From a virus, in the IMG/VR virus record IMGVR_UViG_3300021519_000031, positions 1 to 34,836 of that record: 34,836 nt of DNA. The stretch is one strand, 5' to 3'. The position numbers and the translations under genes are program-made. The notes below the pieces were generated by a model. The model had not been told where the DNA came from. It saw nothing but the letters and a program-made list of their open reading frames with translations, and ran no database searches. Shown one piece after another: positions 20,906 through 33,620 of the stretch (position 1 is the first letter of the stretch; each line of letters opens with the position of its first letter).

Positions 20906-20988
20906 GGAAGTAATCCGGCTGGATGAGGACACCGACTTGAAATCGGCTGGGCTGAAAGGCTTTGGGGGTTCGAGTCCCTCTGCTTCCG
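20906..20988 (+). tRNA. tRNA-Ser (UGA)
   Basis: Acceptor GGAAGTA pairs with TGCTTCC, discriminator G. Loop CTTGAAA. Long variable arm (CTGGGCTGAAAGGCTTTG region), T-loop TTCGAGT. Confidence 0.9.
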
Positions 20989-21014
20989 TGGTTCATTGTA
21001 GTAGTCTTGATTTT

Positions 21015-21022
21015 TATAAATA
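21015..21022 (+). promoter_or_regulatory. T4-type late promoter TATAAATA
   Basis: Exact TATAAATA 24 bases before the ATG of the homing endonuclease at 21047. Late promoters before homing endonucleases are known in T4, where they limit early expression of the nuclease. Confidence 0.65.
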
Positions 21023-21046
21023 CTCTTGTCATCTTCAGGAGTAAAT

Positions 21047-21715
21047 ATGAATAATTGTTCGTTTTGTAAAAAAGATTGTACAAATCCAGGTGGGTTGGGG
21101 GCACATACTCCTTATTGTCATCTCAATCCACAAAGAAAAAAAAGACCATGGTCAGGTGGGTGTGCAAAAAAAGGTTCTATACCATGGAATATTGGAACAA
21201 AGGGTCTTACAGGTGGCTGGAATAAAGGTATAAAGGGGTCAACCACTGGAAAAGCCGGGAGTCCTGAAAAGGAGATATTACGAAAACAAAGAATAAGTGC
21301 ATCAATGAAAAAAAACGATAAGTGTGGCGGAAAAAGACACGCATCGGGAAGAGGAAAAAAAGGATGGTACAAAGGATTTTTTTGTGATAGCTCCTATGAA
21401 CTTGCATACGTTATATTCTGTTTAGAACATAACAAAAAAATAGAAAGATGCACACAATCTTTACCATATTTTTGGGAAGGAACCCCAAGAAATTATTTAC
21501 CAGATTTTATTGTAGATGGGAAAATAGTAGAAATAAAAGGTTACAAATCTCCTCAATGGAATGCAAAACAAAACGCATATCCTAATATTTCTGTTCTTTA
21601 TCAAAAAGACTTGAAGGATGTTTTTGAATATGTCCAAAATAAATATGGAAAAGATTATATCAGATTGTATGAAACCACCGTGAGTTCGAATCTCACCCTG
21701 TCCGTTGCTGTTTGA
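21047..21715 (+). CDS. Homing endonuclease, PD-(D/E)XK/Vsr-like, with N-terminal zinc finger
   Basis: A 222-residue protein from the ATG at 21047 (CAGGAG upstream) rather than the TTG at 21026. The N-terminus is a C2HC-like zinc module (CSFCKKDC..GLGAHTPYCH). A Gly/Lys/Trp-rich DNA-binding linker follows (GSIPWNIGTKGLTGGWNKG, NUMOD-like). The nuclease core is DSSYELAYVIFCLEHNKKIER then NYLPDFIVDGKIVEIKGYK, a D..ExK active site like Vsr-type homing enzymes. The last residues are encoded by a tRNA 3' end (21680-21704). Codon use is more AT-rich than neighbours, suggesting recent acquisition. Confidence 0.82.
   Translation: MNNCSFCKKDCTNPGGLGAHTPYCHLNPQRKKRPWSGGCAKKGSIPWNIGTKGLTGGWNKGIKGSTTGKAGSPEKEILRKQRISASMKKNDKCGGKRHASGRGKKGWYKGFFCDSSYELAYVIFCLEHNKKIERCTQSLPYFWEGTPRNYLPDFIVDGKIVEIKGYKSPQWNAKQNAYPNISVLYQKDLKDVFEYVQNKYGKDYIRLYETTVSSNLTLSVAV
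21680..21704 (+). pseudogene. tRNA-Ser-like 3' fragment within the end of the homing endonuclease gene
   Basis: GTGAG-TTCGAAT-CTCAC is a perfect T-arm, followed by CCTGTCC and discriminator G, which is a tRNA-Ser 3' end. It resembles tRNA-Ser(ACU) at 26594-26618 with a few compensated changes. It is read through as the last codons of the nuclease gene. A possible 5' partner GGACAGG lies at 20878-20884, but that 7-mer also occurs by chance at 22040. Confidence 0.72.
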
Positions 21716-21727
21716 TAATTGAAATAC

Positions 21728-21809
21728 GCGCTAGTGGCGGAATTGGCAGACGCACTTGCCTTAGGAGCAAGCGATGAAAATCTTAGGGGTTCAAGTCCCT
21801 TCTGGCGCA
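21728..21809 (+). tRNA. tRNA-Leu (UAG)
   Basis: Acceptor GCGCTAG pairs with CTGGCGC. Anticodon arm CTTGC-CTTAGGA-GCAAG, long variable arm, T-loop TTCAAGT, discriminator A. Confidence 0.93.
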
Positions 21810-21810
21810 C

Positions 21811-21839
21811 TTGACAACGGAAGTACACCAATGTATATT
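21811..21839 (+). promoter_or_regulatory. Early sigma70-type promoter inside the tRNA array
   Basis: TTGACA (21811-21816), 17-base spacer, TATATT (21834-21839), followed by ACATG as in the 17108 promoter. ATGTA and TACAT (21831-21835, 21839-21843) mirror each other over the -10 box. It reads into tRNA-Leu(UAA) and the tRNAs beyond. Confidence 0.82.
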
Positions 21840-21850
21840 ACATGAGTACT

Positions 21851-21931
21851 GCTCCGATGGTGAAATCGGTAAACACAAGGGACTTAAAATCCCTCGCCAA
21901 AAGCTTGTCGGTTCGAGTCCGACTCGGAGCA
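21851..21931 (+). tRNA. tRNA-Leu (UAA)
   Basis: Acceptor GCTCCGA pairs with TCGGAGC. Anticodon arm AGGGA-CTTAAAA-TCCCT, long variable arm, T-arm GTCGG-TTCGAGT-CCGAC. First tRNA after the 21811 promoter. Confidence 0.94.
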
Positions 21932-21941
21932 TAGTGTTAAC

Positions 21942-22014
21942 GCCCTTATAACTCAATTGGTAGAGTAGCTGGCTTTTAACCAGTAAGTTGTAGGTTCGAG
22001 TCCTACTGGGGGCA
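21942..22014 (+). tRNA. tRNA-Lys (UUU)
   Basis: Acceptor GCCCTTA pairs with TGGGGGC (two G-T). Loop CTTTTAA, T-arm GTAGG-TTCGAGT-CCTAC, discriminator A. Confidence 0.92.
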
Positions 22015-22069
22015 TGTAGTACGATGAGCGAAGGAATCCGGACAGGCATAATTCTGCACACTGATTCAT

Positions 22070-22142
22070 ACGCTAGTAGCTCATCGGTCAGAGCAGACGC
22101 CTTATAAGCGTCCGGTAGGTGGTTCAATTCCACCCTAGCGTA
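22070..22142 (+). tRNA. tRNA-Ile (UAU)
   Basis: Acceptor ACGCTAG pairs perfectly with CTAGCGT. Anticodon arm GACGC-CTTATAA-GCGTC. It reads the AUA codon directly, avoiding the need for lysidine-modified CAU tRNA. Confidence 0.92.
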
Positions 22143-22145
22143 TTT

Positions 22146-22218
22146 GCAGGAGTAACTCAATTGGCAGAGTCCTCGCCTTCCAAGCAAGTGGTTGCGGGTT
22201 CGAGTCCCGTCTCCTGCT
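22146..22218 (+). tRNA. tRNA-Gly (UCC)
   Basis: Acceptor GCAGGAG pairs with CTCCTGC, discriminator T. Loop CTTCCAA; the anticodon stem has one central mismatch (C-A). T-arm GCGGG-TTCGAGT-CCCGT. Confidence 0.88.
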
Positions 22219-22239
22219 CTTAACGTCATGGAGGTTTTT

Positions 22240-22344
22240 ATGGTGTATTCAACATGTGAAAGTTGTGGTCATATCCAGAAAGGATTGGCTCCCCCGTGCG
22301 AGAAGTGTCAGGGGATGCAGATGAAAACGATAACGAGGTCGTAG
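22240..22344 (+). CDS. 34-residue zinc-ribbon peptide in the tRNA array
   Basis: MVYSTCESCGHIQKGLAPPC begins a 34-residue ORF with two CxxC knuckles (CESC, CEKC) separated by 11 residues, a compact rubredoxin-like knuckle pair. GGAGG lies 6 bases before the ATG. It fills the gap between tRNA-Gly and tRNA-Thr. The knuckles and strong ribosome site make it likely real despite its size. Confidence 0.58.
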   Translation: MVYSTCESCGHIQKGLAPPCEKCQGMQMKTITRS

Positions 22345-22351
22345 TAAAGTT

Positions 22352-22433
22352 GCTGGTGTCGCATAGTGGCAATTGCCCCAGATTTGTAATCTGGTCTCGC
22401 AAGAGTTCGTGGGTTCGAGTCCCACCACCAGCT
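22352..22433 (+). tRNA. tRNA-Thr (UGU) with unusual long variable arm
   Basis: Acceptor GCTGGTG pairs with CACCAGC, discriminator T. Anticodon arm CCAGA-TTTGTAA-TCTGG, T-arm GTGGG-TTCGAGT-CCCAC. The variable region is 14 bases and can fold (CTC-GCAA-GAG), whereas tRNA-Thr normally has a short one. The D-arm TGTCGC-TAG-GGCAAT resembles the tRNA-Tyr in this array. Confidence 0.85.
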
Positions 22434-22437
22434 TTAC

Positions 22438-22510
22438 GCGAATGTAGCTCAGTTGGTAGAGCGCAACCTTGCCAAGGTTGATGTCGTGGGTTCAAGTCCC
22501 ATCATTCGCT
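22438..22510 (+). tRNA. tRNA-Gly (GCC)
   Basis: Acceptor GCGAATG pairs with CATTCGC. Anticodon arm CAACC-TTGCCAA-GGTTG, T-arm GTGGG-TTCAAGT-CCCAT, discriminator T. Confidence 0.93.
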
Positions 22511-22553
22511 CTTGCAGGACGAGTGGGCATACATTCGTTACACTATGGTAGGG

Positions 22554-22582
22554 AGCTTGATGCTCAACATGCCGGTCAAGCT
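22554..22582. repeat. Inverted repeat in tRNA spacer
   Basis: AGCTTGA (22554-22560) and TCAAGCT (22576-22582) form a 7-bp stem around a 15-base loop in the spacer between tRNA-Gly(GCC) and tRNA-Phe. It may be a processing signal or remnant; no T-run follows. Confidence 0.45.
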
Positions 22583-22586
22583 TAAC

Positions 22587-22659
22587 GCCATTGTAGCTCA
22601 GTTGGTAGAGCACTGCCCTGAAGAGGCAGGTGTCGGGGGTTCGACTCCCTCCGATGGCA
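22587..22659 (+). tRNA. tRNA-Phe (GAA)
   Basis: Acceptor GCCATTG pairs with CGATGGC. Anticodon arm CTGCC-CTGAAGA-GGCAG, T-arm GGGGG-TTCGACT-CCCTC. Confidence 0.94.
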
Positions 22660-22680
22660 TTCGCAATATAAAGAATACCA

Positions 22681-22701
22681 TATTCCCAAGTAGTTCAATT
22701 A
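22681..22701 (+). pseudogene. tRNA-Asn 5' fragment upstream of the GroES-like gene
   Basis: TATTCCCAAGTAG at 22681-22693 is identical to 23452-23464, the 5' flank, acceptor and start of the D-arm of tRNA-Asn(GUU). TCA and TT matches continue to about 22700. No anticodon or T-arm follows. The two copies bracket the GroES-like gene and the 23044 gene. Confidence 0.6.
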
Positions 22702-22720
22702 TATTTTTCAAGAGGATATT

Positions 22721-23014
22721 ATGAGAGCATTTAATGATAACATCGTGGTAACAGTTGATGAAACAAAGACAGGTCCCAAGACAACGGCAGGTGGATTGTA
22801 CATTCCAGAATCTGCTATGCAGGAAGATGGACAAATTTTGTCAGGCACCGTGTTCTCAATAGGCGAGATTCCATTGGCATCAGGTGAGTATCGGTTTCCT
22901 TCGGTTCATGTGGGTAATGTTATTTGGTTTGCAAAGTTTAAGGCATCGAAGATAGTGGAAGATGGTGTCACTTATCACATTGTTCCTGAATCAGCAATTC
23001 TCGCTATTAAGTAA
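22721..23014 (+). CDS. GroES-like co-chaperonin
   Basis: A 97-residue Cpn10 family protein. MRAFNDNIVVTVDE gives the first strand. GGLYIPESAMQEDGQILSGTVFSIGE contains the mobile-loop region and barrel strands, and VHVGNVIWFAKFKASKIV..YHIVPESAILAI is the conserved C-terminal barrel. Phage Cpn10 proteins (such as T4 gp31) replace host GroES to enlarge the GroEL chamber for the major capsid protein. The normal GroES roof loop is short here. AAGAGG precedes the ATG. It lies in a block bounded by a tRNA-Asn fragment and an intact tRNA-Asn. Confidence 0.85.
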   Translation: MRAFNDNIVVTVDETKTGPKTTAGGLYIPESAMQEDGQILSGTVFSIGEIPLASGEYRFPSVHVGNVIWFAKFKASKIVEDGVTYHIVPESAILAIK

Positions 23015-23043
23015 CACAAATTTATCATACACAGGAGAATATT

Positions 23044-23445
23044 ATGGCAAAGACAAAGACAGCAAAGAAGGCATCCAAGTTGGCAAAGGTGAAGCCAGAA
23101 CTTCAAACAGTTTTAGACACCACCGATGTCACGGAAGCATTTAGTTCCGTTTTGGAGTCATACCAAAACAATCCCACGCTTATTGCATTTCGAGATATGG
23201 TGGATAACTTGATTGCAACTCATGGTCCCACTGCGGAACTTGTATTCAGTCATGATTCGTATGATGTTGATTGCGTATTAGAATGGTTTGTTGAATTTAC
23301 ACGGGATGAAACTCCTGAGGAAATGAAGTCACGCCTGCAGGCAGAAAAGAAACTACGTGATAATGACAAAAAGTATGAGGCGCAGGAACTTCGTTATGAG
23401 AAGAAAGAATATCTCCGCTTGAAGAAGAAGTTCGAAGGAAAGTAA
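23044..23445 (+). CDS. Unknown charged helical protein
   Basis: A 133-residue protein with a basic Lys/Ala/Thr-rich N-terminus (AKTKTAKKASKLAKVK). The middle is helical (VTEAFSSVLESYQNNPTLIAFRDMV), and an aromatic and acidic segment (SYDVDCVLEWFVEF) follows. The tail is a strongly charged coiled-coil-like helix (residues about 95-133). CAGGAG precedes the ATG. It follows the GroES-like gene and may be co-transcribed with it. No family recognised. Confidence 0.55.
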   Translation: MAKTKTAKKASKLAKVKPELQTVLDTTDVTEAFSSVLESYQNNPTLIAFRDMVDNLIATHGPTAELVFSHDSYDVDCVLEWFVEFTRDETPEEMKSRLQAEKKLRDNDKKYEAQELRYEKKEYLRLKKKFEGK

Positions 23446-23454
23446 TACAGGTAT

Positions 23455-23527
23455 TCCCAAGTAGCTCAGTTGGTAGAGCTGGTGACTGTTAATCACCCTG
23501 TCGGGGGTTCGAGTCCCTCCTTGGGAG
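23455..23527 (+). tRNA. tRNA-Asn (GUU), copy 1
   Basis: Acceptor TCCCAAG pairs with CTTGGGA, discriminator G. Anticodon arm GGTGA-CTGTTAA-TCACC. A 5' fragment of this tRNA recurs at 22681. Confidence 0.94.
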
Positions 23528-23641
23528 CTGTAACGCCGTGAGAATGTCTTCCTACCATGTACGTCTGGTGTAGGTATAGTCACCTCACTCTTCACCGCCA
23601 GTTGAGGAAAGCGCACGGAGTCATGACCCGAACTGGCATTT
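23528..23641 (+). other. Structured noncoding spacer in the tRNA array
   Basis: A 114-base gap with no plausible gene but clear pairing. GCCAGTT (23597-23603) matches AACTGGC (23631-23637) as a 7-bp stem. CCTAC and GTAGG (about 23551 and 23571) can form another hairpin. It may be a small RNA or a tRNA-processing element. No known RNA family is recognised; a GAGGAAAG motif is too short to call RNase P. Confidence 0.35.
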
Positions 23642-23715
23642 GGGGTGGTAGCATAATTGGTTAATGCCCCGCACTGTCACTGCGGAGATTGCGGGTTCGA
23701 GCCCCGTCCATCCCG
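23642..23715 (+). tRNA. tRNA-Asp (GUC)
   Basis: Acceptor GGGGTGG pairs with CCATCCC, discriminator G. Anticodon arm CCGCA-CTGTCAC-TGCGG, T-arm GCGGG-TTCGAGC-CCCGT. Confidence 0.93.
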
Positions 23716-23740
23716 TTTCTCTTTCTGTAGGAGTGTTACT

Positions 23741-23860
23741 ATGCTATCAGGATTACTATTAGTGGTGATGTGTGTGATTGGATACAAATTAGATAAGATG
23801 GATGAAAAACTGAATATCATTATTAAAGAACTTCGTATTGATGGCTGGGCAATAAAGTAA
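23741..23860 (+). CDS. 39-residue membrane peptide
   Basis: MLSGLLLVVMCVIGYKLDKM begins a 39-residue protein with one N-terminal membrane helix followed by a charged amphipathic helix (DEKLNIIIKELRIDGWAIK). TAGGAG lies 8 bases before the ATG. The frame is open further upstream but that part is tRNA-Asp sequence, so 23741 is the true start. Lies between tRNA-Asp and tRNA-Asn copy 2. Confidence 0.5.
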   Translation: MLSGLLLVVMCVIGYKLDKMDEKLNIIIKELRIDGWAIK

Positions 23861-23864
23861 GCAT

Positions 23865-23937
23865 TGGGGTGTAGCTCAATTGGCAGAGCATCGCACTGTT
23901 AATGCGACGGTTGGTGGTTCGAGTCCACCCGCCCCAG
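23865..23937 (+). tRNA. tRNA-Asn (GUU), copy 2
   Basis: Acceptor TGGGGTG pairs with CGCCCCA, discriminator G. Anticodon arm TCGCA-CTGTTAA-TGCGA. Same anticodon as the tRNA at 23455 but a different body, so not a recent duplicate. Confidence 0.93.
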
Positions 23938-23939
23938 TT

Positions 23940-24021
23940 GGGAGTGTCGCCTAGCGGCAATGGCAGGAGACTGTAAATCTCCCGGTGTAAACCTACGATG
24001 GTTCGAGTCCATCCACTCCCA
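23940..24021 (+). tRNA. tRNA-Tyr (GUA)
   Basis: Acceptor GGGAGTG pairs with CACTCCC. Anticodon arm GGAGA-CTGTAAA-TCTCC. The 14-base variable arm (CGGTGTAAACCTAC) fits bacterial class II tRNA-Tyr. Confidence 0.93.
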
Positions 24022-24025
24022 CTAT

Positions 24026-24099
24026 ACACCAGTAGCTCAGTTGGTTAGAGCACACGCCTGATAAGCGTGAGGTCAATGGTTCAACTCCATTCTGGTGTA
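24026..24099 (+). tRNA. tRNA-Ile (GAU)
   Basis: Acceptor ACACCAG pairs with CTGGTGT. Anticodon arm CACGC-CTGATAA-GCGTG, T-arm AATGG-TTCAACT-CCATT. Confidence 0.93.
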
Positions 24100-24108
24100 T
24101 CCCATGTA

Positions 24109-24137
24109 TTGACAAATATGGCACACTGTAGTATATT
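24109..24137 (+). promoter_or_regulatory. Early sigma70-type promoter of the uvsE operon
   Basis: TTGACA (24109-24114), 17-base spacer, TATATT (24132-24137), then ACA. CTGTA and TACAG (24126-24130, 24137-24141) mirror each other around the -10 box. GAGG precedes the uvsE ATG at 24163. Confidence 0.82.
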
Positions 24138-24162
24138 ACAGTATAACTTCAAGTGAGGATAT

Positions 24163-25059
24163 ATGCCACATCAGGTTGGTTATTGCTGTATCAATACGAC
24201 ATTGGGCAAGCAAAAAATCATGACGGGCAGAACCATGCGCCAAGCCTCGTTTCTTGAGGATACCCATCTGGTACGCACCTCTTTGCTGGCGTTGCAAAAT
24301 GTACAAGATTTGGTAAAAATATTGCGCTGGAATGCGGAACACCATGTCAAGGTGTATCGTATTGGCAGTAACATCTTTCCTTGGAATTCAGAATATCACC
24401 TCACGGATTTGCCTGACATTTCAAAAATTCTTGAGGTGATGAAACAGGCAGGTGAGGTGATTCAAGCATCAGGACAACGTGTGTCATTTCATCCTGACCA
24501 TTTTGTTAAGCTAGGTACGGTGAAGGACGATGTAGCGCGCCGTTCCATTCATGATTTAAATCACCACGATGAATTAATGACCATGCTTCAACTACCCACC
24601 AATCATTATTATCCGTTAAACATTCATGTTGGCATGAATTACAGTAAGGATGTCATTCAGCGATTCATTGAACGATTCGACATGCTCAAGGATACAACCC
24701 GCCAGCGGCTCGTTGTGGAAAATGATGACAAGGCAAACTCCTTCTCAGTAAGACAGTTGTACGAGGACATTTATTCACATATCAAAACACCCATCACGTT
24801 TGATTATTTTCATCATACATTTCATCCTGACATGCTAACATCAGCAGATGCCGCGCGTTTGGCGGCGTCAACATGGGATTGTACACCGTTGTTTCATTAC
24901 AGCGAGAGCAAGAATTTAAATGAGCACCTATCAGGAAATGCTCGCGCCCATGCGGATTATGTATTTCAACCTATCGACGATTACAATCTACATATTGACA
25001 TTGATTTAGAAGCAAAGGCAAAAGAAAAGGCGCTGTTTAAATATTGGGAACTGTCATGA
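24163..25059 (+). CDS. uvsE: UV damage endonuclease UvsE/UVDE
   Basis: A 298-residue TIM-barrel endonuclease that nicks DNA 5' to pyrimidine dimers and other lesions to start excision repair. Family blocks are visible in order: VGYCCINTTLG (5-15), ILRWNAEHHVKVYRIGSNIFPW (53-74), VSFHPDHFVKLG (metal His), NIHVGMNYSKD, LVVENDDK (catalytic Glu) and ITFDYFHHTFHP (paired His metal site). Length is normal for bacterial UvsE. It is the first gene of an early operon, which suggests repair of phage DNA damaged by sunlight, and so a sunlit aquatic habitat. ATGA overlap with the next gene. Confidence 0.9.
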   Translation: MPHQVGYCCINTTLGKQKIMTGRTMRQASFLEDTHLVRTSLLALQNVQDLVKILRWNAEHHVKVYRIGSNIFPWNSEYHLTDLPDISKILEVMKQAGEVIQASGQRVSFHPDHFVKLGTVKDDVARRSIHDLNHHDELMTMLQLPTNHYYPLNIHVGMNYSKDVIQRFIERFDMLKDTTRQRLVVENDDKANSFSVRQLYEDIYSHIKTPITFDYFHHTFHPDMLTSADAARLAASTWDCTPLFHYSESKNLNEHLSGNARAHADYVFQPIDDYNLHIDIDLEAKAKEKALFKYWELS

Positions 25060-25826
25060 ACGGTATTCGAAGAAAAAACTATCTATTCAAGTATTTGCAT
25101 GTCCATGTTGGAAATTCATTGGGCGATGTGATTGTATGCACAGGCATCATTCATCACTTGGCAAAGAGCACGGAAACGTTGATTCTGGACACTAATCCAT
25201 TCTATAAAGAATCCTTGATGTGTTTGTTCAGTGACTTCCCAAATATTCTGCCGCTCACGAAAACGGAGTATGCTATTTTCAAGCAGGACAAGGGACCCAT
25301 TGAAGAAATTGTTGCTCCCAGTGCATCCTCCATGCCGATTGTATTTCCTAACGGTGAAAAGGGGTCTGCTCCTTTTGCATGGGAACGTCAGCATTATGAG
25401 AACTTTGATTTACCCTTTTCTACCCGCTACACGCAGTTTCACATGCCTAGGCACATTCCCAATGCCCACGCGCTCTATGAGACACTCACGGAAGGGGAAG
25501 AGAATTACATTGTAACGAATCGCTTTATGGGTGTTGAGTTAAACTATGCCAATTACTTTATTGACCGCTGGAACCCGCATAAGTATAAGGTGATTGACAT
25601 CACGCCCCACATGACCACGAACGTTTTTGATTTTGTTGAGTTGTTTAGACATGCCAAGCAGATTCATGTGGTGCCAACCAGCATCCATCAATTAGTCGAT
25701 AGCATGGTCAATGATATCTCCGGAGAATTGTTTTTCCATAACATTCGTGCAAATTTTTGGAGTCCTGTGAATTGTCAATTTAATGAATATCGTTGGAAAA
25801 TCATTAACTATTTGGATAAGATATGA
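25056..25826 (+). CDS. Glycosyltransferase-like protein (GT9/GT-B resemblance)
   Basis: A 256-residue protein started at the ATG at 25056 (ATGA overlap with uvsE); a TTG at 25044 is also in frame. HVHVGNSLGDVIVCTGIIHHLAKS near residues 14-37 resembles the N-terminal GDxLxxTPxIRxLK-like segment of family 9 (heptosyl) transferases. IHVVPTSIHQLVDSMVN near residues 205-222 resembles their C-terminal donor-site helix (NSSxxHLxxAL). The resemblance is by layout only. It lies between uvsE and a methyltransferase-like gene, so the three may modify DNA, virions or the cell surface. Confidence 0.5.
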   Translation: MNGIRRKNYLFKYLHVHVGNSLGDVIVCTGIIHHLAKSTETLILDTNPFYKESLMCLFSDFPNILPLTKTEYAIFKQDKGPIEEIVAPSASSMPIVFPNGEKGSAPFAWERQHYENFDLPFSTRYTQFHMPRHIPNAHALYETLTEGEENYIVTNRFMGVELNYANYFIDRWNPHKYKVIDITPHMTTNVFDFVELFRHAKQIHVVPTSIHQLVDSMVNDISGELFFHNIRANFWSPVNCQFNEYRWKIINYLDKI

Positions 25827-26437
25827 CACAACTCTGCACACTTCCTGAAAAAATCTTTGAACCCTACAATATTGAGAATTTTGTTGAGACAGGGTGCTGG
25901 ATTGGAGAAGGCATTAAATATGCATCCCACCTCGGTATTCGCAACATTTTTAGTTGTGATATTGATGAGCATGCCGTACTAGTATCTCGGCAGGTGGTAC
26001 CTGACTCACACATTTATCATGCGGATAGCAAAGAATTTCTACGAACCGTATTACCTACCCTTCGTGGAATTACAATGTTTTGGTTAGATGCTCACTTTCC
26101 CAATGAACCATGGTCACAAGGATTTATTGATAGTGCGGCACAGCAGTTAGACTTGCCAGAAAAAAAGAAAATTGATATTCATGAGGACTATGAATTTCCC
26201 TTGTTCGATGAGATAGCTCTTATCAAAGAATTGAAATACAATTACACACAAGATATTTTCTTCTGCGATGATGTGCGTGTTTTCTATGATGAACAGAATC
26301 CTATGTTTCAGCCTGAGACACCTAGAGAACATCGAGTGTACAATCGCTGGAAAGAATTCACCAATGTATTATCCAAGACACACCGCCTTGAAGTCATCAT
26401 GATAGGAGAAGGCGTTGGTATGTGGGTTCCGAAGTGA
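25823..26437 (+). CDS. SAM-dependent methyltransferase-like protein
   Basis: A 204-residue Rossmann-like protein. NFVETGCWIGEGIKYASHLG (residues 18-37) is a class I methyltransferase motif I, IFSCDIDEHAVLVSR the motif II acidic strand, and MFWLDAHFP the motif IV strand. The C-terminal part is acidic and aromatic (FFCDDVRVFYDEQNPMF). It overlaps the GT-like gene by ATGA. Phage relatives are often annotated FkbM-like or sugar methyltransferases. The substrate is unknown; a sugar made or moved by the upstream GT is a fair guess. Confidence 0.65.
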   Translation: MTQLCTLPEKIFEPYNIENFVETGCWIGEGIKYASHLGIRNIFSCDIDEHAVLVSRQVVPDSHIYHADSKEFLRTVLPTLRGITMFWLDAHFPNEPWSQGFIDSAAQQLDLPEKKKIDIHEDYEFPLFDEIALIKELKYNYTQDIFFCDDVRVFYDEQNPMFQPETPREHRVYNRWKEFTNVLSKTHRLEVIMIGEGVGMWVPK

Positions 26438-26460
26438 CAGAAGATGAAATAGAAAAGTTC

Positions 26461-26532
26461 GCCCCTATCGTCTAATGGATAAGATAACGCTCTTCTAAAG
26501 CGTCTATGTAGGTTCGACTCCTGCTAGGGGCA
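26461..26532 (+). tRNA. tRNA-Arg (UCU)
   Basis: Acceptor GCCCCTA pairs with TAGGGGC. Anticodon arm ACGCT-CTTCTAA-AGCGT. Reads AGA/AGG. Confidence 0.93.
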
Positions 26533-26533
26533 T

Positions 26534-26618
26534 GGACAGTTGGCTGAGTGGTCTAAAGCAGCCGATTACTAATCGGCAGGAGTGAAAGCTTCCGTGGGTT
26601 CGAATCCTACACTGTCCG
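26534..26618 (+). tRNA. tRNA-Ser (ACU), unusual anticodon
   Basis: Acceptor GGACAGT pairs with ACTGTCC, discriminator G and a long variable arm, all serine features. Anticodon arm GCCGA-TTACTAA-TCGGC puts ACT at positions 34-36; bacteria normally use GCU for AGY codons. Its T-arm and 3' end recur inverted at 33621-33650. Confidence 0.85.
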
Positions 26619-26645
26619 TGCATTAACGATTATATATAGTCATAA

Positions 26646-26718
26646 CGGAAAATAGCTCAATTGGTAGAGCACACGCTTTGGGAGCGTGGGGTTGCAGGTT
26701 CAAGTCCTGTTTTTCCGA
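26646..26718 (+). tRNA. tRNA-Pro (UGG)
   Basis: Acceptor CGGAAAA pairs with TTTTCCG. Anticodon arm CACGC-TTTGGGA-GCGTG. C1-G72 is typical of tRNA-Pro. Confidence 0.93.
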
Positions 26719-26742
26719 CTAACATTTAACAGCAGAGGGAGT

Positions 26743-26925
26743 ATGCATAAAATTATCAACTATATTATAAATATTCCGAGAAAACAAAAAGTCATGGCAT
26801 TCAAAGCGGTGTTATTCTTCGCGCTTATGCTGTGTGGTTTCTATTGGTATAAGATTGAAGTGACTAAAGAAAATGTTATAGAGTTTTTTCAAGGCGGTGA
26901 CATTCAAAGGTCACTTCGGGATTAA
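26743..26925 (+). CDS. 60-residue single-helix membrane protein
   Basis: MHKIINYIINIPRKQKVMAF begins a 60-residue protein with an amphipathic basic N-terminus, one membrane helix at about residues 18-36 and an acidic C-terminal tail (TKENVIEFFQGGD). GAGGGAG sits 3-9 bases upstream of the ATG at 26743. Earlier in-frame ATGs lie inside tRNA-Pro and are rejected. Between tRNA-Pro and tRNA-Cys. Function unknown. Confidence 0.52.
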   Translation: MHKIINYIINIPRKQKVMAFKAVLFFALMLCGFYWYKIEVTKENVIEFFQGGDIQRSLRD

Positions 26926-26931
26926 TACATC

Positions 26932-27005
26932 GGGCATGTGGTGAAGTGGTCTAACACAGTGGTCTGCAAAACCTCGATTCGTCGGTTCAAATCCGACCAT
27001 GCCCT
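26932..27005 (+). tRNA. tRNA-Cys (GCA)
   Basis: Acceptor GGGCATG pairs with CATGCCC, discriminator T (cysteine identity). Loop CTGCAAA, T-arm GTCGG-TTCAAAT-CCGAC. One mismatch in the anticodon stem. Confidence 0.88.
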
Positions 27006-27007
27006 TT

Positions 27008-27080
27008 AGGTCCATGGCTCAATTGGTAGAGCATCGGTCTCCAAAACCGAGGGTTGGGGGTTCGACTCCCTCTGGGCCTG
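27008..27080 (+). tRNA. tRNA-Trp (CCA)
   Basis: Acceptor AGGTCCA pairs with TGGGCCT, discriminator G. Anticodon arm TCGGT-CTCCAAA-ACCGA. Last tRNA of the array. Confidence 0.93.
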
Positions 27081-27124
27081 TTCCGAGAAATACTCGGAGA
27101 TTCAACAATTTCAAAGGAGTGATT

Positions 27125-27301
27125 ATGTCCAAGTTTTTCCTTGCAGTCGTTGTTGTAACACTTTCAGCTTGCGCTCCCAAGGGTGCCGCTGAAATACAGG
27201 AAGATGTGAAGCCCGCTGCCCCTGCCGCTGCCGCTCCTGCTGATACCACAGCAACTACATGTGACATCGCTACCAAGAAGTGTGAGGCTGTTGCCAAGTA
27301 A
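27125..27301 (+). CDS. Small Ala/Pro-rich lipoprotein
   Basis: A 58-residue protein with a signal peptide II: basic start, hydrophobic run and lipobox LSAC with Cys16 as the probable lipidation site. The mature part is APKGAAEIQEDVKPAAPAAA followed by a Thr/Cys-containing tail with two further cysteines. The true ATG is 27125 (AAGGAG upstream); the longer frame reads back through tRNA-Trp. A small outer-membrane lipoprotein could be an outer spanin, but it is far from the lysis genes. Confidence 0.68.
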   Translation: MSKFFLAVVVVTLSACAPKGAAEIQEDVKPAAPAAAAPADTTATTCDIATKKCEAVAK

Positions 27302-27817: not shown

Positions 27818-27825
27818 TATAAATA
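27818..27825 (+). promoter_or_regulatory. T4-type late promoter of the exported-protein operon
   Basis: Exact TATAAATA followed by GT, starting at the base after the YkuK-type stop codon. It is 75 bases before the ATG at 27900 and would transcribe the whole 27900-33620 operon late in infection. Confidence 0.72.
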
Positions 27826-27837
27826 GTAGCACAACAG

Positions 27838-27877
27838 ACCCTATGATTTCTACTTCGTTATGTAAAAATCATAGGGT
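27838..27877 (+). promoter_or_regulatory. 12-bp hairpin at the start of the late export transcript
   Basis: ACCCTATGATTT (27838-27849) pairs perfectly with AAATCATAGGGT (27866-27877) around a 16-base loop. It begins about 13 bases after the late promoter, so it would be the 5' leader hairpin of the transcript. There is no strong T-run after it. It may protect the mRNA, control the 27900 start or end upstream transcription. Confidence 0.65.
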
Positions 27878-27899
27878 TTCCCTTATCTAGGAGTCTGAA

Positions 27900-28382
27900 A
27901 TGTTATCAAACATCATAAGTCTTGTTATGGTGAGTATGCTAAACATTATGCCCTTGAGCGCAACCAAACAAATGTTTGTTGAAAAGGTGGAAAACCAAGT
28001 GCAAATTGGTGCTCTTGCAGGTAGCAGAAATCTTGAATTTGGTGTGAAAAATATCCTTGAAGAAGCATTACTTGAAAAAGACTATGAATTAAAGCCTGAT
28101 GCCGCATTACATCTCAAGGTGGAAATCATATATCTTGATGTGTTAAATACAAAAAAGAATATTTCTGTGTTTCATAGCAGTGATGAAGCAGTTGTTATTC
28201 GTATGAAAGGCACCTTATATCTGAATGGGAAGAAAATCAAGGACACGTTTGTTGAAGAATCATCCTCGGAAATTTCCATGAGTACATTAATTATTGATAA
28301 TGGCGGTAAATTTAACCAAACAAGTTTAAGTAATGCACTGAAAAAAGCCAGTGTTGCACTTGTCAATAAACTCACGGAGTAA
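27900..28382 (+). CDS. Exported protein of unknown fold, first gene of the export operon
   Basis: A 160-residue protein with an N-terminal hydrophobic segment (about residues 1-19, SLVMVSMLNIMPLSA) that looks like a signal peptide. The mature part is alternating strands and helices (AALHLKVEIIYLDVLN, GTLYLNGKKIKDTFVEESSSEI, SNALKKASVALVNKL), similar in layout to periplasmic accessory proteins of CsgG/LpoB-like systems (DUF-type, by pattern only). CTAGGAG precedes the ATG, after the leader hairpin. It could partner the CsgG-like protein encoded at 30788. Confidence 0.6.
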   Translation: MLSNIISLVMVSMLNIMPLSATKQMFVEKVENQVQIGALAGSRNLEFGVKNILEEALLEKDYELKPDAALHLKVEIIYLDVLNTKKNISVFHSSDEAVVIRMKGTLYLNGKKIKDTFVEESSSEISMSTLIIDNGGKFNQTSLSNALKKASVALVNKLTE

Positions 28383-28385
28383 GCA

Positions 28386-30095
28386 ATGAAAAAAGTTTTT
28401 GCGTTATTGTTTGTGCCATTCATGCTGGCGCGAGCACAGTATCCCGTTTACACATTTTATCCTCAAGCCATCACACAGAACATTCATGGTGGGGCGATAC
28501 AAAAGAATGATACTGTTCAGGTGACCATTAAGGTGAATGCCAATGGCAGTACGTTGCGCTCCACCTATTTTGATTTTCAACATCAATACACCGCTATTTC
28601 ATTAATTGATGTGACGATGGCAGCAGCAGGTGCTCAGGGGTCTGCGCTTCCTACAGGAACCAGTACAAGTGTGCAGAATTATTTCTATCAGAATTGCAAA
28701 TTGAATAGAAGCACCCAGAACACCACGACAAGTAGCTGGACCAATTATCAAAATGCCAATTACACCTGTAATGCAAACACCGCCCCGAACGATGCCATTA
28801 ATCGTATCATGGCAACTGTATCAGGTAATAGCAATTTGGGTAATGGTGATTACATGTATTTGCGCTTTAGAATTACCAACATTACGGCAGGATTCCCGTA
28901 TGATTCCATTCGCATGAATTTCGCGGCAGGATATCAAAGTAATGGTAATCAACAGACCTCAACTCTCGGTGAGCCCCACGCTTCATGGGTGCAACTTGCG
29001 GCAGGGGCAAACAACCTCATAACAGGAAACATTGCACTCCCCGCAAACTTAACCGTGTTGCCCAAAGTTATGATGCTGGATAGTTTAACCAACGCATTTG
29101 TAGCAAGCACCTCGTTAACCAGCGAAGGCAATTTCGGATTCAGTACGGAGCTACAACCCAACACAAAATATAAAATGTATTTGGTGTGGACTGCTGATAG
29201 TTTAGCAAAGCTCTCGACCCAAGCCACGACACTCTCTGACTACACAATGGCATTTCAAGAATTTCTGTCACAGAATCTTGATAAGACCTATAAGAACAAC
29301 AATTTAACTCGTGGTGTTCGCTACAAGGCAGCGGATGTGACTCTTGATGGTGTGTTTGACGGTAGTGATGTGCAACTCTTATTCAACGCAGTCACCGGGC
29401 TTGATACTATACTCGCGCCCCCAAGTGGTGCAACATCCTCATGGGATTACCCCAGTGTATATCTGCTTCCTGTCGCAGTGTTTGATAGTCTTAGCGCAGA
29501 CAAGTGGAACAATACAGTGACATCTTGGCCCAATCATTACGGACTCACAACGTCAAATTCCACGCAGACCATCAATTTAAAATACTTGTTGTTAGGTGAC
29601 CCAAACTTATCCATGTCCTCACCCTTGAGTGCAGGATATAATTTACGGATGGCAAACCTCAGTACAGCAACACCTTCCATTGATGTAAATCTTGCTAACA
29701 CGATTGTCACCAATAATCAAATCACCATTCCCTTTGCTGTTGATACCAAGGGTGTGTCTGTCACGGGGCTACAATTTGAAATCACCTATGACGCCACGAA
29801 GGTGAAGTTTGACCGTCTTGACATAAACACTCCAAGTTGGATATCCTTCGTGAACAATGGCGTGGGACATATTAAATTTGGAGCGTTCGACAAGGATTTA
29901 AAAGTTGCCATCACAGGAAAGGTGACACCGTTCAACATGGTGTTCTCTGCAATTGGAAGCGGCGTTGATATGAATTCTCAGGTAAGTATTAGTCCCATCA
30001 TGGATGCATCAGACAGTAAAGGAAATCACGTTAATATCAATCTCAATACACCGATTATCAAATTAATCGGCGCCAACAATTTTCGGAAACCATAA
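28386..30095 (+). CDS. Large secreted protein with cohesin-like and dockerin-like segments
   Basis: A 569-residue protein with a signal peptide (KKVFALLFVPFMLARAQ). Residues about 38-185 (VQVTIKVNANGS..FDFQHQYTAISLIDV) and about 437-560 (IPFAVDTKGVSVTGLQFEITYDATKVKFD) look like cohesin-type beta sandwiches. VTLDGVFDGSDVQLLF near 318-334 resembles one dockerin calcium loop. Cohesin and dockerin modules bind each other and are used to build extracellular complexes. The protein may self-assemble or decorate the host surface, virion or lysate. The match is by layout, not by search. No catalytic domain is seen. Confidence 0.62.
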   Translation: MKKVFALLFVPFMLARAQYPVYTFYPQAITQNIHGGAIQKNDTVQVTIKVNANGSTLRSTYFDFQHQYTAISLIDVTMAAAGAQGSALPTGTSTSVQNYFYQNCKLNRSTQNTTTSSWTNYQNANYTCNANTAPNDAINRIMATVSGNSNLGNGDYMYLRFRITNITAGFPYDSIRMNFAAGYQSNGNQQTSTLGEPHASWVQLAAGANNLITGNIALPANLTVLPKVMMLDSLTNAFVASTSLTSEGNFGFSTELQPNTKYKMYLVWTADSLAKLSTQATTLSDYTMAFQEFLSQNLDKTYKNNNLTRGVRYKAADVTLDGVFDGSDVQLLFNAVTGLDTILAPPSGATSSWDYPSVYLLPVAVFDSLSADKWNNTVTSWPNHYGLTTSNSTQTINLKYLLLGDPNLSMSSPLSAGYNLRMANLSTATPSIDVNLANTIVTNNQITIPFAVDTKGVSVTGLQFEITYDATKVKFDRLDINTPSWISFVNNGVGHIKFGAFDKDLKVAITGKVTPFNMVFSAIGSGVDMNSQVSISPIMDASDSKGNHVNINLNTPIIKLIGANNFRKP

Positions 30096-30470
30096 ATGAA
30101 AAAACTTCTCGTTTTCTCCACAATTTTCATTATGAGTTGCACAGTTGATAATCATCCCATGGCACCCCAAGTGATTATCAATGACATGACATTGGGTGCA
30201 AAATCCATGTCCACCGTTATTGCAAGCATTTCAGAGAAAGTAACAACAGGAAAAGTAACAATCACCATGACGGTGACACCTGGTGCCATGTATAGCTTAC
30301 AGTTAACCGACATGCAAAATAAAGTGATAAATAATGAAGGATTCACAGCAAACACAATCACGCTCGTAAAGTTATTGGATTACACAAATGTTCCCACCGG
30401 GACATATGATTTAACACTTATGGACACAAGTGGGAACAGCAGTAAGATTCCCGTCATCATTCAACGCTAG
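30096..30470 (+). CDS. Lipoprotein with Ig-like beta domain
   Basis: A 124-residue protein whose ATG follows the previous TAA directly. The signal peptide ends in the lipobox FIMSC with Cys15 as probable lipid anchor. The mature part is a run of Thr/Val-rich strands (GKVTITMTVTPGAMYSLQLTD, PTGTYDLTLMDTSGN), like an Ig-fold or a type IX-style C-terminal sandwich. Likely anchored in the outer or inner membrane as part of the export module. Role unknown. Confidence 0.65.
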   Translation: MKKLLVFSTIFIMSCTVDNHPMAPQVIINDMTLGAKSMSTVIASISEKVTTGKVTITMTVTPGAMYSLQLTDMQNKVINNEGFTANTITLVKLLDYTNVPTGTYDLTLMDTSGNSSKIPVIIQR

Positions 30471-30478
30471 GAGACACC

Positions 30479-30754
30479 ATGTCTGAAGAAAAGAAAGAAG
30501 AAAGCGCAATGTCAGGCTTGAAGAAAGCAATCATTAGTGCTATTACATTACTTGTCACCACACTTGCGGGATTGCTTGTGACGAAAGTTGCTGGAGGAGA
30601 AAAGAAAGAAGCTGCTCCTGCTCCTGCCGCCGCCGCCGTCGCGCCAAGCATCATCATTAATAATAGTCAATCAAATAGTGGCGGCGGTGCAGCACCTGCT
30701 AAAAAACTAGAGGAGAAGAAAGATGGCTGGACGAAAAAAGAACCCAAGTGGTAG
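30479..30754 (+). CDS. Small membrane protein with Ala/Pro-rich linker
   Basis: A 91-residue protein: acidic/basic start (MSEEKKEESAMSG), one membrane helix at about residues 15-40 (AIISAITLLVTTLAGLLVTKVAG), an Ala/Pro stretch, SIIINNSQSNSGGG, then a Lys-rich tail. No cleavable signal is obvious, so it may sit in the inner membrane. AGGAGACACC precedes the ATG. Could link export proteins to the inner membrane. Function unknown. Confidence 0.55.
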   Translation: MSEEKKEESAMSGLKKAIISAITLLVTTLAGLLVTKVAGGEKKEAAPAPAAAAVAPSIIINNSQSNSGGGAAPAKKLEEKKDGWTKKEPKW

Positions 30755-30791
30755 CAAGAATTCGCTTCTAATAGGAGTATCACACGTATGA
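30723..30791 (+). CDS. Possible 22-residue basic leader peptide
   Basis: MAGRKKNPSGSKNSLLIGVS then HV, overlapping the end of the preceding gene and ending on a TGA that overlaps the CsgG-like ATG (ATGA at 30788). GAGGAGAAAG precedes its ATG. It could act as a translational coupling leader for the CsgG-like gene. Short enough that chance is possible. Confidence 0.35.
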   Translation: MAGRKKNPSGSKNSLLIGVSHV

Positions 30792-31498
30792 AGAAATTCT
30801 TAATGTTGTTGGTTACACCCCTTGTGCTTCATGCCCAAGTGGTAGGTTCAACGAAAACCGAAGATTACAAAGCATCTTTTGAAAAGAAGATTAGCATTGA
30901 TAGTTTGATGGATTACAACGGACCGAAGATTCCTATACAGCTCTTGAATGTAGGTATTGGCGAAGATGTCTTTGCCTCATATCCTGAACTCAAGGATAAG
31001 CGTGTGGGTTTAGGTGTAACCAACATCATTGTAGAATTTCTTGAAGAAACAAATCGCTTCACGTTCACCGAAGATAAAACAGAAATCAAGAACAGAATGG
31101 TGAAGCAGTTTCAAGCTTCCCAGTCAGGATTCACGAAGGATAAGCTGGACGGGGCAGGAAAGATTCGCTTGGCCCATTACTTTGTATATGCGGAAGTGTA
31201 TGATTTCTCTGTCTCCGAAGACGAGACCATTAATATGAAAGATGGTGTCAAGAATAAAGTTGTCACACGATTAGGATTACAAATTAAGTTTGTTGATGCA
31301 GAAACAGGCGAGTATTTCACAGGGTCTGGGTTGGGCGAAGCCAAGACCGTGCGTGAATTAACGCTGATGAATGATGCAAATTTCAGTGAGGTGAAGTTTA
31401 ACCAAAGCACCATTGGTACAACGACAAAGAAAGCGTTGGAAGATGCGGCTGCGAAAATCTTAACACGTATGGTTAAGAAGGGACTATTCAAAAAATGA
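30788..31498 (+). CDS. CsgG-like curli secretion family protein
   Basis: A 236-residue exported protein (signal peptide about residues 1-16, VLHA then Q). IPIQLLNVGIGEDVFASYPELKDKRVGLGVTNIIVEFLEETNRFTFTED matches the CsgG ring-forming fold, and the C-terminal STIGTTTKKALEDAAAKILTRMV is the family's final helix region. Canonical CsgG is an outer-membrane lipoprotein that exports curli subunits; this one lacks the lipobox cysteine, so anchoring may differ. CsgG-like genes occur in some marine T4-like phages (from memory). It lies centrally in a run of exported proteins. No CsgA-like curlin subunit is seen here. Confidence 0.72.
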   Translation: MKKFLMLLVTPLVLHAQVVGSTKTEDYKASFEKKISIDSLMDYNGPKIPIQLLNVGIGEDVFASYPELKDKRVGLGVTNIIVEFLEETNRFTFTEDKTEIKNRMVKQFQASQSGFTKDKLDGAGKIRLAHYFVYAEVYDFSVSEDETINMKDGVKNKVVTRLGLQIKFVDAETGEYFTGSGLGEAKTVRELTLMNDANFSEVKFNQSTIGTTTKKALEDAAAKILTRMVKKGLFKK

Positions 31499-32121
31499 AA
31501 AAATTCTTAATGCTGTTTGTTGCAGTATCGTCAATACAGGCACAAGATACGGTACGAGTGAAGCATGACAACTATATCTCCGTCTATTCCAAGTCGAAGC
31601 ATTATCCCCTCATGGTCGAGTGGTGGGATACAAAAGACAAGGTGGCATGTAAAAATCAACTCACACGTATTGATAAGTTTGCGCCCGATCCCTTGGCATT
31701 AAAGGACAGTGATTTAGGAAAGGATTATGTGGGCTCTGGATTAGACCGAGGACACATGAGTCCTGCCGCTGACAATGAATGTTCTGGAAAGAAAGTCTTG
31801 GAAGAAGCCTTCTACTTCACCAACATGGTGCCCCAATACCACTCGTTAAATGCGGGGGATTGGAAATCCGTAGAAACGTTTTGCCGACAACTGGCAACTC
31901 AATACGATTCCGTCCATATCTGGGCGGGTGCAGTGGGTGATGCCGAGCACATCAAGGGATTGGTCATCCCTACGAAAAATTGGAAAGTCATGTATGTTCC
32001 TAAAACACAGACTTGGTATGCGTATATCTTTGAAAACACGAAGGCGAAACCTGTTGGGGTTCTGCCTCACGTGGTAACAGTAGAGGCTGTTACAAAACTT
32101 ACCCAATTCAAATTTAAATGA
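31495..32121 (+). CDS. Exported DNA/RNA non-specific endonuclease (NUC/EndoG family)
   Basis: A 208-residue nuclease with a signal peptide ending SSIQA then Q (about residues 1-17). The family motif DRGHMSPAAD lies at residues 84-93, with His87 as general base. YFTNMVPQYHSLNAGDWKSVE (107-127) supplies the metal-binding Asn119. Such magnesium-dependent nucleases cut single- and double-stranded DNA and RNA without sequence preference. Export keeps it away from phage DNA in the cytoplasm and would place it in the periplasm or outside. ATGA overlaps at both ends join it to CsgG-like and barrel genes. Possible roles: blocking superinfecting DNA, or digesting extracellular nucleic acid. Confidence 0.85.
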   Translation: MKKFLMLFVAVSSIQAQDTVRVKHDNYISVYSKSKHYPLMVEWWDTKDKVACKNQLTRIDKFAPDPLALKDSDLGKDYVGSGLDRGHMSPAADNECSGKKVLEEAFYFTNMVPQYHSLNAGDWKSVETFCRQLATQYDSVHIWAGAVGDAEHIKGLVIPTKNWKVMYVPKTQTWYAYIFENTKAKPVGVLPHVVTVEAVTKLTQFKFK

Positions 32122-33620
32122 AAAAACTCCTTAGCACAACCGTATTATTTGCGATTGTCCTGAGTTCTCTTTTTGTTACAAGTTGTAAAGCACAAGTCAT
32201 TGTCCAAACATGGGTTGACCCATGCGATAATTCAGTCAAGACATACACATTTCCTATTACAGGACCAGGTGTTGTTGTTTTGTATCGCGGCAATGCCAAG
32301 CTGTTTACTGCAAAACAAGCGAATAGTGGTGAGTTAATGGCATGGGTATCACAGATAACAGCAACTGTGCCTTGCCCCATCACAACAAACACAGTGGTCA
32401 CACAAGCCGCGACAACAGCGGCGACCAGTGCGGCAACAGCGGCAGCAAGTAGCGCGGCAACAGCGGCAGCCTCAAGTGCCGCAAGCAGTTCTGCAAGTTC
32501 AGCAGCAAGTAGCGCAGCAAGTGGTGCGGCAACGGCGGCAGCGTCTGCTCCAGTTCCTGTTCCTACTGCTCCTCCTCCACCAACACCTGCGGCGCCGGCC
32601 CCAGCCCCAGCGCCCGCTCCTGCAGAACCTGCACCTGCTCCTAAAACAGAAGCGGCACCTGCACCTGCGGCAAAATCAGAACCTGCGCCTGAACCTAAAA
32701 CTGAAGCAAAGACGGAAACAAAAACGGAAAGTAAATCAGAAACGAAAAGTGAGAGCAAGTCGGAAAGCAAGTCAGAAGAAAAGAAATCTGAAAGTAAATC
32801 CGAAGAAAAGAAATCTGATGAGAAGAAGTCTGATGACAAGAAAAAAGAAGAGGAAAAGAAAAAAGCACAAGCACGGGTGAATCCCATGATGCTTGCCTCT
32901 GATTTAACAACAGGACAACAGGCTGATGGTAGTCTTGCGTCCATTGTGACTGTGGGTGTGTCACAGTCATCGTTAATGGGTGACAAGAGTTATGGTGCAA
33001 CAGGCATGATTTGGAGCACACTTGACCAAGGAGCAATATCATTAGCATACACTAAGATGAATTTCAAAAAAGGGAAATTGAATTACATTAGTGCATATTC
33101 AAGCACAAGTGCCTATTTAAAAGGAACGTTAATGACAATGGTGGGATACACCTGGGTGAAGCCTCATGCGCGTTTTGGTGTGTTTGGTGTTTCAACGGGT
33201 GTGATTGGCTTGTTTGTGCCTGAGAAAATTGATAGATATATCACAGACAGTTTGGAAGTATCACAATGGTTGCTAGAGCATAACGTCACAATGAAAACAC
33301 GCCCTGACACCATTCATGACAAACATACCACATATCATTCCAGCTTTGCAACATCCGCAGTGGCATTTTGGATGCATCCTCCCATTAACATCAATGAGAA
33401 AATCACTGTCTCACCACAACTCTTTGTCATGGGGTCACCCATCTCATATAACAGTGTCACAGGTCTTTCAACCAATCAAACATTTGGCACCATGATGGGT
33501 ACATCGCTTGATTATAAAATCACCAAGCGGTTTGGCATTTCTAGCGCATGGCGTATCATGATGATGCCTGGCACAAAAGCATTAAATAATTTAATGATAG
33601 GGTCTCGGATTATGCTCTGA
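32118..33620 (+). CDS. Lipoprotein with Ala/Ser, Pro/Ala and Lys/Glu/Ser tracts and a barrel-like C-terminus
   Basis: A 500-residue protein with a lipobox (FVTSC, Cys23). A globular part of about residues 24-90 comes first. Low-complexity regions follow: Ala/Ser (about 95-145), Pro/Ala (145-175), then Lys/Glu/Ser (195-255). The C-terminal half (about 260-500) consists of amphipathic strands with Gly/Ser turns (SIVTVGVSQSSLMGDKSYGATGMIWST, ISLAYTKMNFKKG, ARFGVFGVSTGVIGL, KRFGISSAWRIM), as in outer-membrane beta barrels or autotransporter-like proteins. It could span or coat the outer membrane. The final residues SRIML do not end in the usual Phe. Final gene of the late operon. Confidence 0.62.
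   Translation: MKKLLSTTVLFAIVLSSLFVTSCKAQVIVQTWVDPCDNSVKTYTFPITGPGVVVLYRGNAKLFTAKQANSGELMAWVSQITATVPCPITTNTVVTQAATTAATSAATAAASSAATAAASSAASSSASSAASSAASGAATAAASAPVPVPTAPPPPTPAAPAPAPAPAPAEPAPAPKTEAAPAPAAKSEPAPEPKTEAKTETKTESKSETKSESKSESKSEEKKSESKSEEKKSDEKKSDDKKKEEEKKKAQARVNPMMLASDLTTGQQADGSLASIVTVGVSQSSLMGDKSYGATGMIWSTLDQGAISLAYTKMNFKKGKLNYISAYSSTSAYLKGTLMTMVGYTWVKPHARFGVFGVSTGVIGLFVPEKIDRYITDSLEVSQWLLEHNVTMKTRPDTIHDKHTTYHSSFATSAVAFWMHPPININEKITVSPQLFVMGSPISYNSVTGLSTNQTFGTMMGTSLDYKITKRFGISSAWRIMMMPGTKALNNLMIGSRIML

Follow-up and report, generated by a model that had tools for sequence, protein, structure and literature searches.

Background

The curli secretion gene csgG, together with csgF and genes for curlin repeats, is known from pelagimyophages (PMC7029224) and from the Methylophilales phage Melnitz (PMC9004378), and uptake, sibling capture and lysis timing have been proposed as roles of phage csgG (PMC7029224, PMC9004378). 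Cargo of the type IX secretion system (T9SS) is likewise encoded by phages, as in Cryophage (PMC7468147), and has also been described near BACON genes (PMC6949934). Here we report on a block of seven genes, named A, B, C, D, G, N and E in their order, in the IMG/VR virus record IMGVR_UViG_3300021519_000031. The stretch analysed, referred to below as the window, is a fragment of 34,836 bases, and some of the domain calls made in it rest on homologues. Tentatively, we read the block as a late, lysis-linked module by which T4-like phages of Bacteroidota would display a scaffold on the surface of the infected cell. CsgG genes and T9SS cargo have each been described in phages before, and this combination of them appears to be undescribed; no paper on phage cohesin/dockerin scaffolds or on the present operon was found in the literature searched, which is weak evidence of absence.

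The module resembles those of the pelagimyophage HTVC008M and of Melnitz in that a CsgG-fold gene lies within an operon for exported proteins of T4-like phages. The CsgG proteins of these two phages are 37-40% identical to E. coli CsgG, whereas G has no sequence-level CsgG match. Their modules contain CsgF and curlin-type repeats, neither of which is present here, and unlike them the present module has a second predicted CsgG-fold protein, a predicted 12-strand barrel and a scaffold with cohesin, dockerin and T9SS features. Compared with the CsgG channel itself (PDB 6l7a, 4uv2 and 4uv3), the model of G has the same fold and the same order of strands and helices, but its identity is 10-13%, it lacks a lipobox, its hairpins are polar, and no CsgE or CsgF accompanies it.

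T9SS sorting domains are found on phage genes in Cryophage as they are in the present B family; the Cryophage cargo, however, consists of single variable genes (endoglucanase, glycoside hydrolase, PA14), whereas here the cargo is a constant component of an envelope operon. Cellulosomes likewise combine a cohesin-type scaffold (scaffoldin), dockerin-like domains on the partner and a surface anchor; the module differs from them in being viral, in belonging to a Gram-negative surface, in having a lectin in place of a cellulase, and in a dockerin similarity that lies below the Pfam cut-off. Finally, jumbo phages such as Klebsiella phage RaK2 carry secreted DNA/RNA non-specific endonucleases of the PF01223 type, and N likewise belongs to a large phage, but N is inserted between the csgG-like and barrel genes and is optional.

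Conservation of the module and its late promoter

By the patterns used, 509 relatives of G were found in IMG/VR viral contigs, and the neighbourhood of the module is kept in more than 100 viral contigs. The analysis covered the best-scoring relatives, which are redundant before clustering; collapsing G at 90% identity gave 30 clusters with enough flanking sequence to be counted. D was present in 30 of them, E in 29, and A and B in 27 each, so that the neighbourhood is conserved in related phages, with the core genes in 27-30 of 30 clusters, and not scattered, which would have spoken against the initial annotation. The variable members are a lectin (17 clusters), an endolysin (14), the nuclease N (5) and a lipase (4). 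The start of E lies within 1.5 kb downstream of G in 33 of 35 clusters, and D within 1.2 kb upstream of it in 31 of 35. The consensus block is B-(C)-D-(small membrane genes)-G-(N)-E, which A either precedes or follows. This conservation is far more than would be expected by chance.

Among isolates, Flavobacterium phage immuto is the closest; this T4-like myophage encodes homologues of gp20 and gp23, and its gp17 is a homologue of G (52% identical). A second scan with the immuto protein as query led to another branch of the family (branch 2), in which A, D, G and E are present in 52 of 52 loci; among the well-flanked loci of branch 1, D was found in 57 of 57, E in at least 55 and A in 51. A scan of 84,980 bacterial and archaeal genomes, which relied on two peptide patterns, detected G on just two contigs, both from Bacteroidota metagenome-assembled genomes (MAGs) and both probably phage contigs. 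From immuto and these two MAG contigs we infer that the host of the window belongs to the Bacteroidota.

In the window, all seven open reading frames of the initial annotation were confirmed on the + strand between 27900 and 33620 (Table 1). Their description as a late operon of exported envelope proteins also stood, with a late motif upstream and Sec signals on nearly all products. The neighbours A/B, B/C, G/N and N/E abut or overlap by 4 bases, a spacing as in a co-transcribed operon. The T4-type late promoter motif TATAAATA occurs 6 times in the window, always on the + strand, compared with 1.46 copies expected for both strands, and none of the shuffles reached 6. Across the loci gathered, the motif was counted when it lay 20-130 bases upstream of a gene; of 95 leaders of first module genes, 21 had it, as opposed to 3 of 548 internal genes (Fisher p 6.5e-16). 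Most of the leader copies are located at -74 to -92, both where A comes first (branch 1) and where B does (branch 2). Because the motif sits ahead of the first and not of the internal module genes, transcription of the module from one late promoter is supported by the sequence. The hairpin in the leader is kept in three relatives (L008, L025 and L026), and since its stems vary there with compensating changes, it is probably a real RNA element, acting on stability or on translation control.

Table 1. Features of the module and its leader in the window
Feature	Position	Strand	Description	Basis or remark
Late promoter	27818..27825	+	T4-type late promoter motif TATAAATA	82 bases upstream of gene A
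Leader hairpin	27845..27883	+	CCCTATGATTT...AAATCATAGGG	predicted fold of -23 kcal/mol
A	27900..28382	+	exported periplasmic protein of 160 amino acids (predicted), short homologue of the CsgG-like G	profile comparison
B	28386..30095	+	exported scaffold (putative) with dockerin-like and cohesin-like domains, without T9SS sorting domain	Pfam matches of family members
C	30096..30470	+	lipoprotein (predicted), homologue of the T9SS sorting domain that is part of B in other phages	profile comparison
D	30479..30754	+	small protein with one predicted membrane span and a conserved C-terminal ...KW	30/30 clusters
G	30788..31498	+	predicted CsgG-fold protein with signal peptide, without lipobox	AlphaFold2, Foldseek
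N	31495..32121	+	secreted DNA/RNA non-specific endonuclease (predicted), DRGH motif, optional	PF01223
E	32118..33620	+	exported protein with N-terminal domain, long helix, linker and C-terminal 12-strand barrel (predicted)	AlphaFold2, Foldseek

The CsgG-fold proteins G and A

Searching Pfam, PHROG and the PDB with the sequences of G, A, B and E from the window itself yielded nothing decisive; for these four genes the decisive matches came from families and structure models and not from the single window sequences. Pfam CsgG (PF03783) was unmatched by all 30 G members searched, and a PDB profile search with G was empty save for one chance match. When the AlphaFold2 model of G (pLDDT 73, pTM 0.66) was compared with the PDB using Foldseek, ranks 1-18 were all occupied by CsgG/curli complexes (best E 4e-7, prob 1.0, TM ~0.46), followed by HpaA-type proteins, FlgT, GNA1162 and LptE. 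Its best match among predicted viral structures is a phage protein named CsgG. The G profile aligned collinearly, at weak scores (P 3e-4, Prob 39), with the CsgG proteins of E. coli, phages and flavobacteria. The models thereby support a CsgG fold for G, which had been annotated initially as CsgG-like, whereas strict membership in the CsgG family is not supported.

The signal peptide of G has a conserved ...AQ end, and neither a lipobox nor a lipidated N-terminal Cys was found in 30 members. The model contains one long hairpin (131-170), and the region of the second CsgG hairpin is polar; the hydrophobicity of hairpin 2 is low, but it is also low there in known phage CsgG.

Homology between family A and G extends along most of A (HHalign P 8e-9, Prob 95.8), and the NQ(S/T)...KKA end is common to both. 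Because of this homology, the module is predicted to make two CsgG-related proteins, one long (G) and one short (A). The product of the first gene, taken earlier for an exported protein of no particular kind, is a shortened relative of G. Its similarity to Lipoprotein_16 and TraT is weak and below cut-off. No Pfam matches to CsgE, CsgF or curlin repeats were obtained among the members of families A, B, E and G.

Scaffold, sorting domain and lectin

Among 30 members of the B family, the T9SS sorting domain (Por_Secre_tail) was matched by 17 at their C-terminal end (best 3.2e-9), Cohesin by 13 (best 2.1e-5) and Dockerin_1 by 4, in line with the cohesin/dockerin-type scaffolding proposed at the outset. 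Beyond that proposal, the comparison revealed a T9SS sorting domain on B in most relatives, C as its detached form, and a lectin in relatives. The sorting domain PF18962 scored 41.6 bits on B of the relative L047 against a cut-off of 27, and immuto gp15 reached 36.7 bits for Cohesin (cut-off 24.1; 5.9e-9) and 34.6 bits for the sorting domain (cut-off 27). The features of T9SS type A cargo, a signal peptide together with a C-terminal PF18962, are thus found in B of relatives and not in window B.

In the window clade, B lacks the sorting domain and is followed by the separate lipoprotein C, which is homologous to the sorting domain of B (profile comparison P 1.7e-7, Prob 94). In a tally of loci that includes redundant ones, 130 had B with the domain and no C, 15 had B without the domain together with C or C2, 2 had neither, and none had both. 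By this homology, the small lipoprotein C is a detached version of the T9SS sorting domain. In immuto, the halves of B are encoded by adjacent separate genes, gp14 with the dockerin-like C-terminal end and gp15 with the cohesin and the sorting domain; the fusion of both halves in other phages suggests that gp14 and gp15 bind each other.

The lectin of the 17 clusters is of the mannose type. Its immuto representative, gp13, scored 57.3 bits for Lectin_C (cut-off 22.6), and the EPN...WND motif of calcium-dependent mannose-type C-type lectins is present in 73 of 75 module lectins. These lectins and B have the dockerin-like domain in common (P 7e-21).

The membrane protein D and the barrel protein E

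By its occurrence, D is an invariant member of the module. In the AlphaFold2 model of E, 12 long strands form a closed antiparallel barrel at 257-500 (pLDDT ~90), so that the C-terminal region is predicted to be a barrel of the outer membrane; ahead of it come the N-terminal domain, a helix of some length and an Ala/Ser/Glu/Lys linker, which is disordered. Both branches share the N-terminal domain and its two invariant Cys; the barrels of the two branches are more diverged, yet their C-terminal parts are related (P 1e-9). A lipoprotein with a barrel-like end had been proposed for this gene. AlphaFold2 and Foldseek bear out the barrel, and the lipoprotein was rejected, as Cys23 is not conserved and most relatives end the signal peptide in ...AQ.

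The nearest solved barrels found by Foldseek are NanC (1.2e-7), PcoB and FapF (1.6e-6). FapF, an amyloid exporter, also possesses a linker and a helical arm in the periplasm. The barrel of this amyloid secretion protein (PDB 5o65 and 5o68) has 12 strands like that of E, but the match is unspecific, and a kinship of E with FapF was considered and is not claimed, since NanC, PcoB and autotransporter barrels score similarly.

Nuclease, lipase and lysis genes

The initial annotation of N as a secreted nuclease was corroborated by a PF01223 match (E 2.6e-33), a signal peptide and a DRGH motif. D[RK]GH is present in all 25 N sequences examined, and the relatives have signal peptides; N is likely to be catalytically competent, and its location and role we infer. 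Single-sequence patterns for N gave no match in viral contigs, and its relatives were found instead through the CsgG neighbourhoods. N is an optional guest of the module (5 of 30 clusters), which does not fit the earlier view of a set built around the nuclease. In relatives of the window clade, a class 3 lipase (Pfam 8.6e-23; 5122-5889 in locus L024, and similar) often follows directly after E; it is absent from the window fragment.

The block had also been regarded as apart from lysis, a separation that the relatives do not support: 14 of 30 clusters have an endolysin within 5 kb of the module, and c4 and c6, which are small membrane genes of holin-like character, are interleaved between D and G. 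In the window, positions 1-880 carry a GH19-type endolysin (phrog_181, 3.7e-66), probably cut by the start of the record, and next to it a gene for a small holin-like protein; the module is 27 kb away.

Neighbouring genes in the window

Directly upstream of the module, a short Ala/Pro-rich lipoprotein is encoded at 27125-27301, with weak similarity to Rz-like spanins (E 0.016); it is possibly an outer spanin. The region 19938-27081 comprises 23 tRNA genes with small open reading frames in between. A protein with collagen-like GYTGSQG repeats, probably a fibre, is encoded at 5237-6685. A purine-rich, Shine-Dalgarno-like motif (AGGA, GGAG or GAGG) is found upstream of 21 of the 40 listed gene starts in the window, which is unusual if the host belongs to the Bacteroidota.

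Proposed mechanism and alternatives

In the mechanism that we propose, the products would be made from the late promoter and exported through Sec. G, its small relative A and the barrel E would form an assembly in the periplasm and the outer membrane, the inner-membrane side of which would be held by D. B would be an extracellular scaffold with cohesin-like and dockerin-like domains, brought to the surface in most phages by the host T9SS via its sorting domain; in the window clade, the lipoprotein C would supply the sorting domain for B. Many phages also encode a mannose-type, Ca-dependent lectin, which has the same dockerin-like domain and would probably dock on B. Before lysis, the infected cell would thereby come to bear a sugar-binding coat or fibre made by the phage, and the nuclease or the lipase would be optional cargo. 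The benefit that we favour is that surface glycans would be masked against superinfection and re-adsorption; alternatively, neighbouring cells may be held.

A surface-display module is favoured by the recurrence of B, D, G and E, together with A, in 27-30 of the 30 independent clusters and by the late promoter motif at the front of the module, whichever gene comes first. The predicted CsgG fold and outer-membrane barrel also speak for it, as do the sorting-domain and cohesin scores above cut-off in B homologues, the homology of C to the sorting domain and their mutual exclusion, the dockerin-like domain common to B and the lectins, the sugar-binding motif of the lectins, and the adjacent gp14 and gp15 of immuto that are fused elsewhere. 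Several observations weigh against it. Membrane insertion of G is doubtful because its hairpins are polar and it has no lipobox. The window's own B has no significant Pfam domain, so that its domain calls rest on homologues, and even in the B family the Dockerin_1 match is below cut-off (best 0.0027). The lectin is absent from the window fragment and from 13 of 30 clusters. Lastly, the module is common, not universal, and it is not essential to the wider phage group, since G is absent from some large gp23-related contigs; that the module belongs to the core genes of this entire group was likewise rejected, because 1 of 3 gp23-bearing records of at least 150 kb has G, in a small sample with some fragments. 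Surface display by a lysis-linked module is put forward as a tentative account. A more specific version is possible and rather doubtful: late in infection, the two predicted CsgG-fold proteins would act with the barrel and an inner-membrane protein as a trans-envelope machine that builds a lectin-bearing cohesin-dockerin scaffold on the bacterial surface, anchored with the help of the host T9SS. A virion-component reading was set aside, as nearly all products carry Sec signals.

A lysis cassette is a serious rival because about half of the clusters have an endolysin and holin-like genes close to the module. In such a cassette, G, A, E and D would reach across the envelope and, when holin and endolysin act, breach or weaken the outer membrane, replacing spanins, with B as a surface anchor. 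Late transcription would suit such a cassette, and a CsgG pore for lysis timing has been proposed for Melnitz (PMC9004378). A lysing cell would nevertheless have no need of a lectin, a cohesin scaffold or a T9SS sorting domain, about half of the clusters have no endolysin near the module, and the window's own endolysin and holin-like gene are far off at its left end. We consider a lysis cassette unlikely; it and the masking of glycans are not mutually exclusive.

Sibling capture, in which the exported scaffold and lectin would glue infected cells to their neighbours so that released virions find hosts, has been put forward for the curli genes of pelagimyophages (PMC7029224). The adhesin-like make-up of the products, the mannose-type lectin motif and the potential of cohesin and dockerin to polymerize would all suit it. 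With the lectin missing in part of the family, little time left by late expression and no clumping observed for Melnitz (PMC9004378), it appears improbable. We regard as still more improbable that pore, barrel and secreted nuclease or lipase degrade nucleic acid and lipid outside the cell and bring them in to supply the synthesis of phage. The active-type nuclease, the lipase of the window clade and the porin-like barrel might suggest such scavenging, but both enzymes are confined to a few clusters, the late promoter speaks against a supply role, and no importer genes were seen. A chance run of unrelated accessory genes (morons), as the coming and going of nuclease, lipase and lectin might suggest, is very improbable, being contradicted by the per-cluster recurrence counts, by the B-D-G-E order kept across two branches that are ~50% identical in G and have different flanks, and by A, which changes position but stays in the module.

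Conclusions

Hundreds of environmental viral contigs encode G, and the block occurs in an isolated phage-host pair, that of immuto with Flavobacterium LMO8; the reason for the presence of CsgG-type genes in phages is therefore testable in culture. If the proposed surface display is true, large phages would rebuild the host surface just before lysis with parts of curli, type IX secretion and the cellulosome, and this would matter for superinfection exclusion, for the formation of aggregates and for the release of DNA in Bacteroidota-rich waters. If the products do act as a trans-envelope machine, theirs would be the first virus-made scaffoldin-like surface structure.

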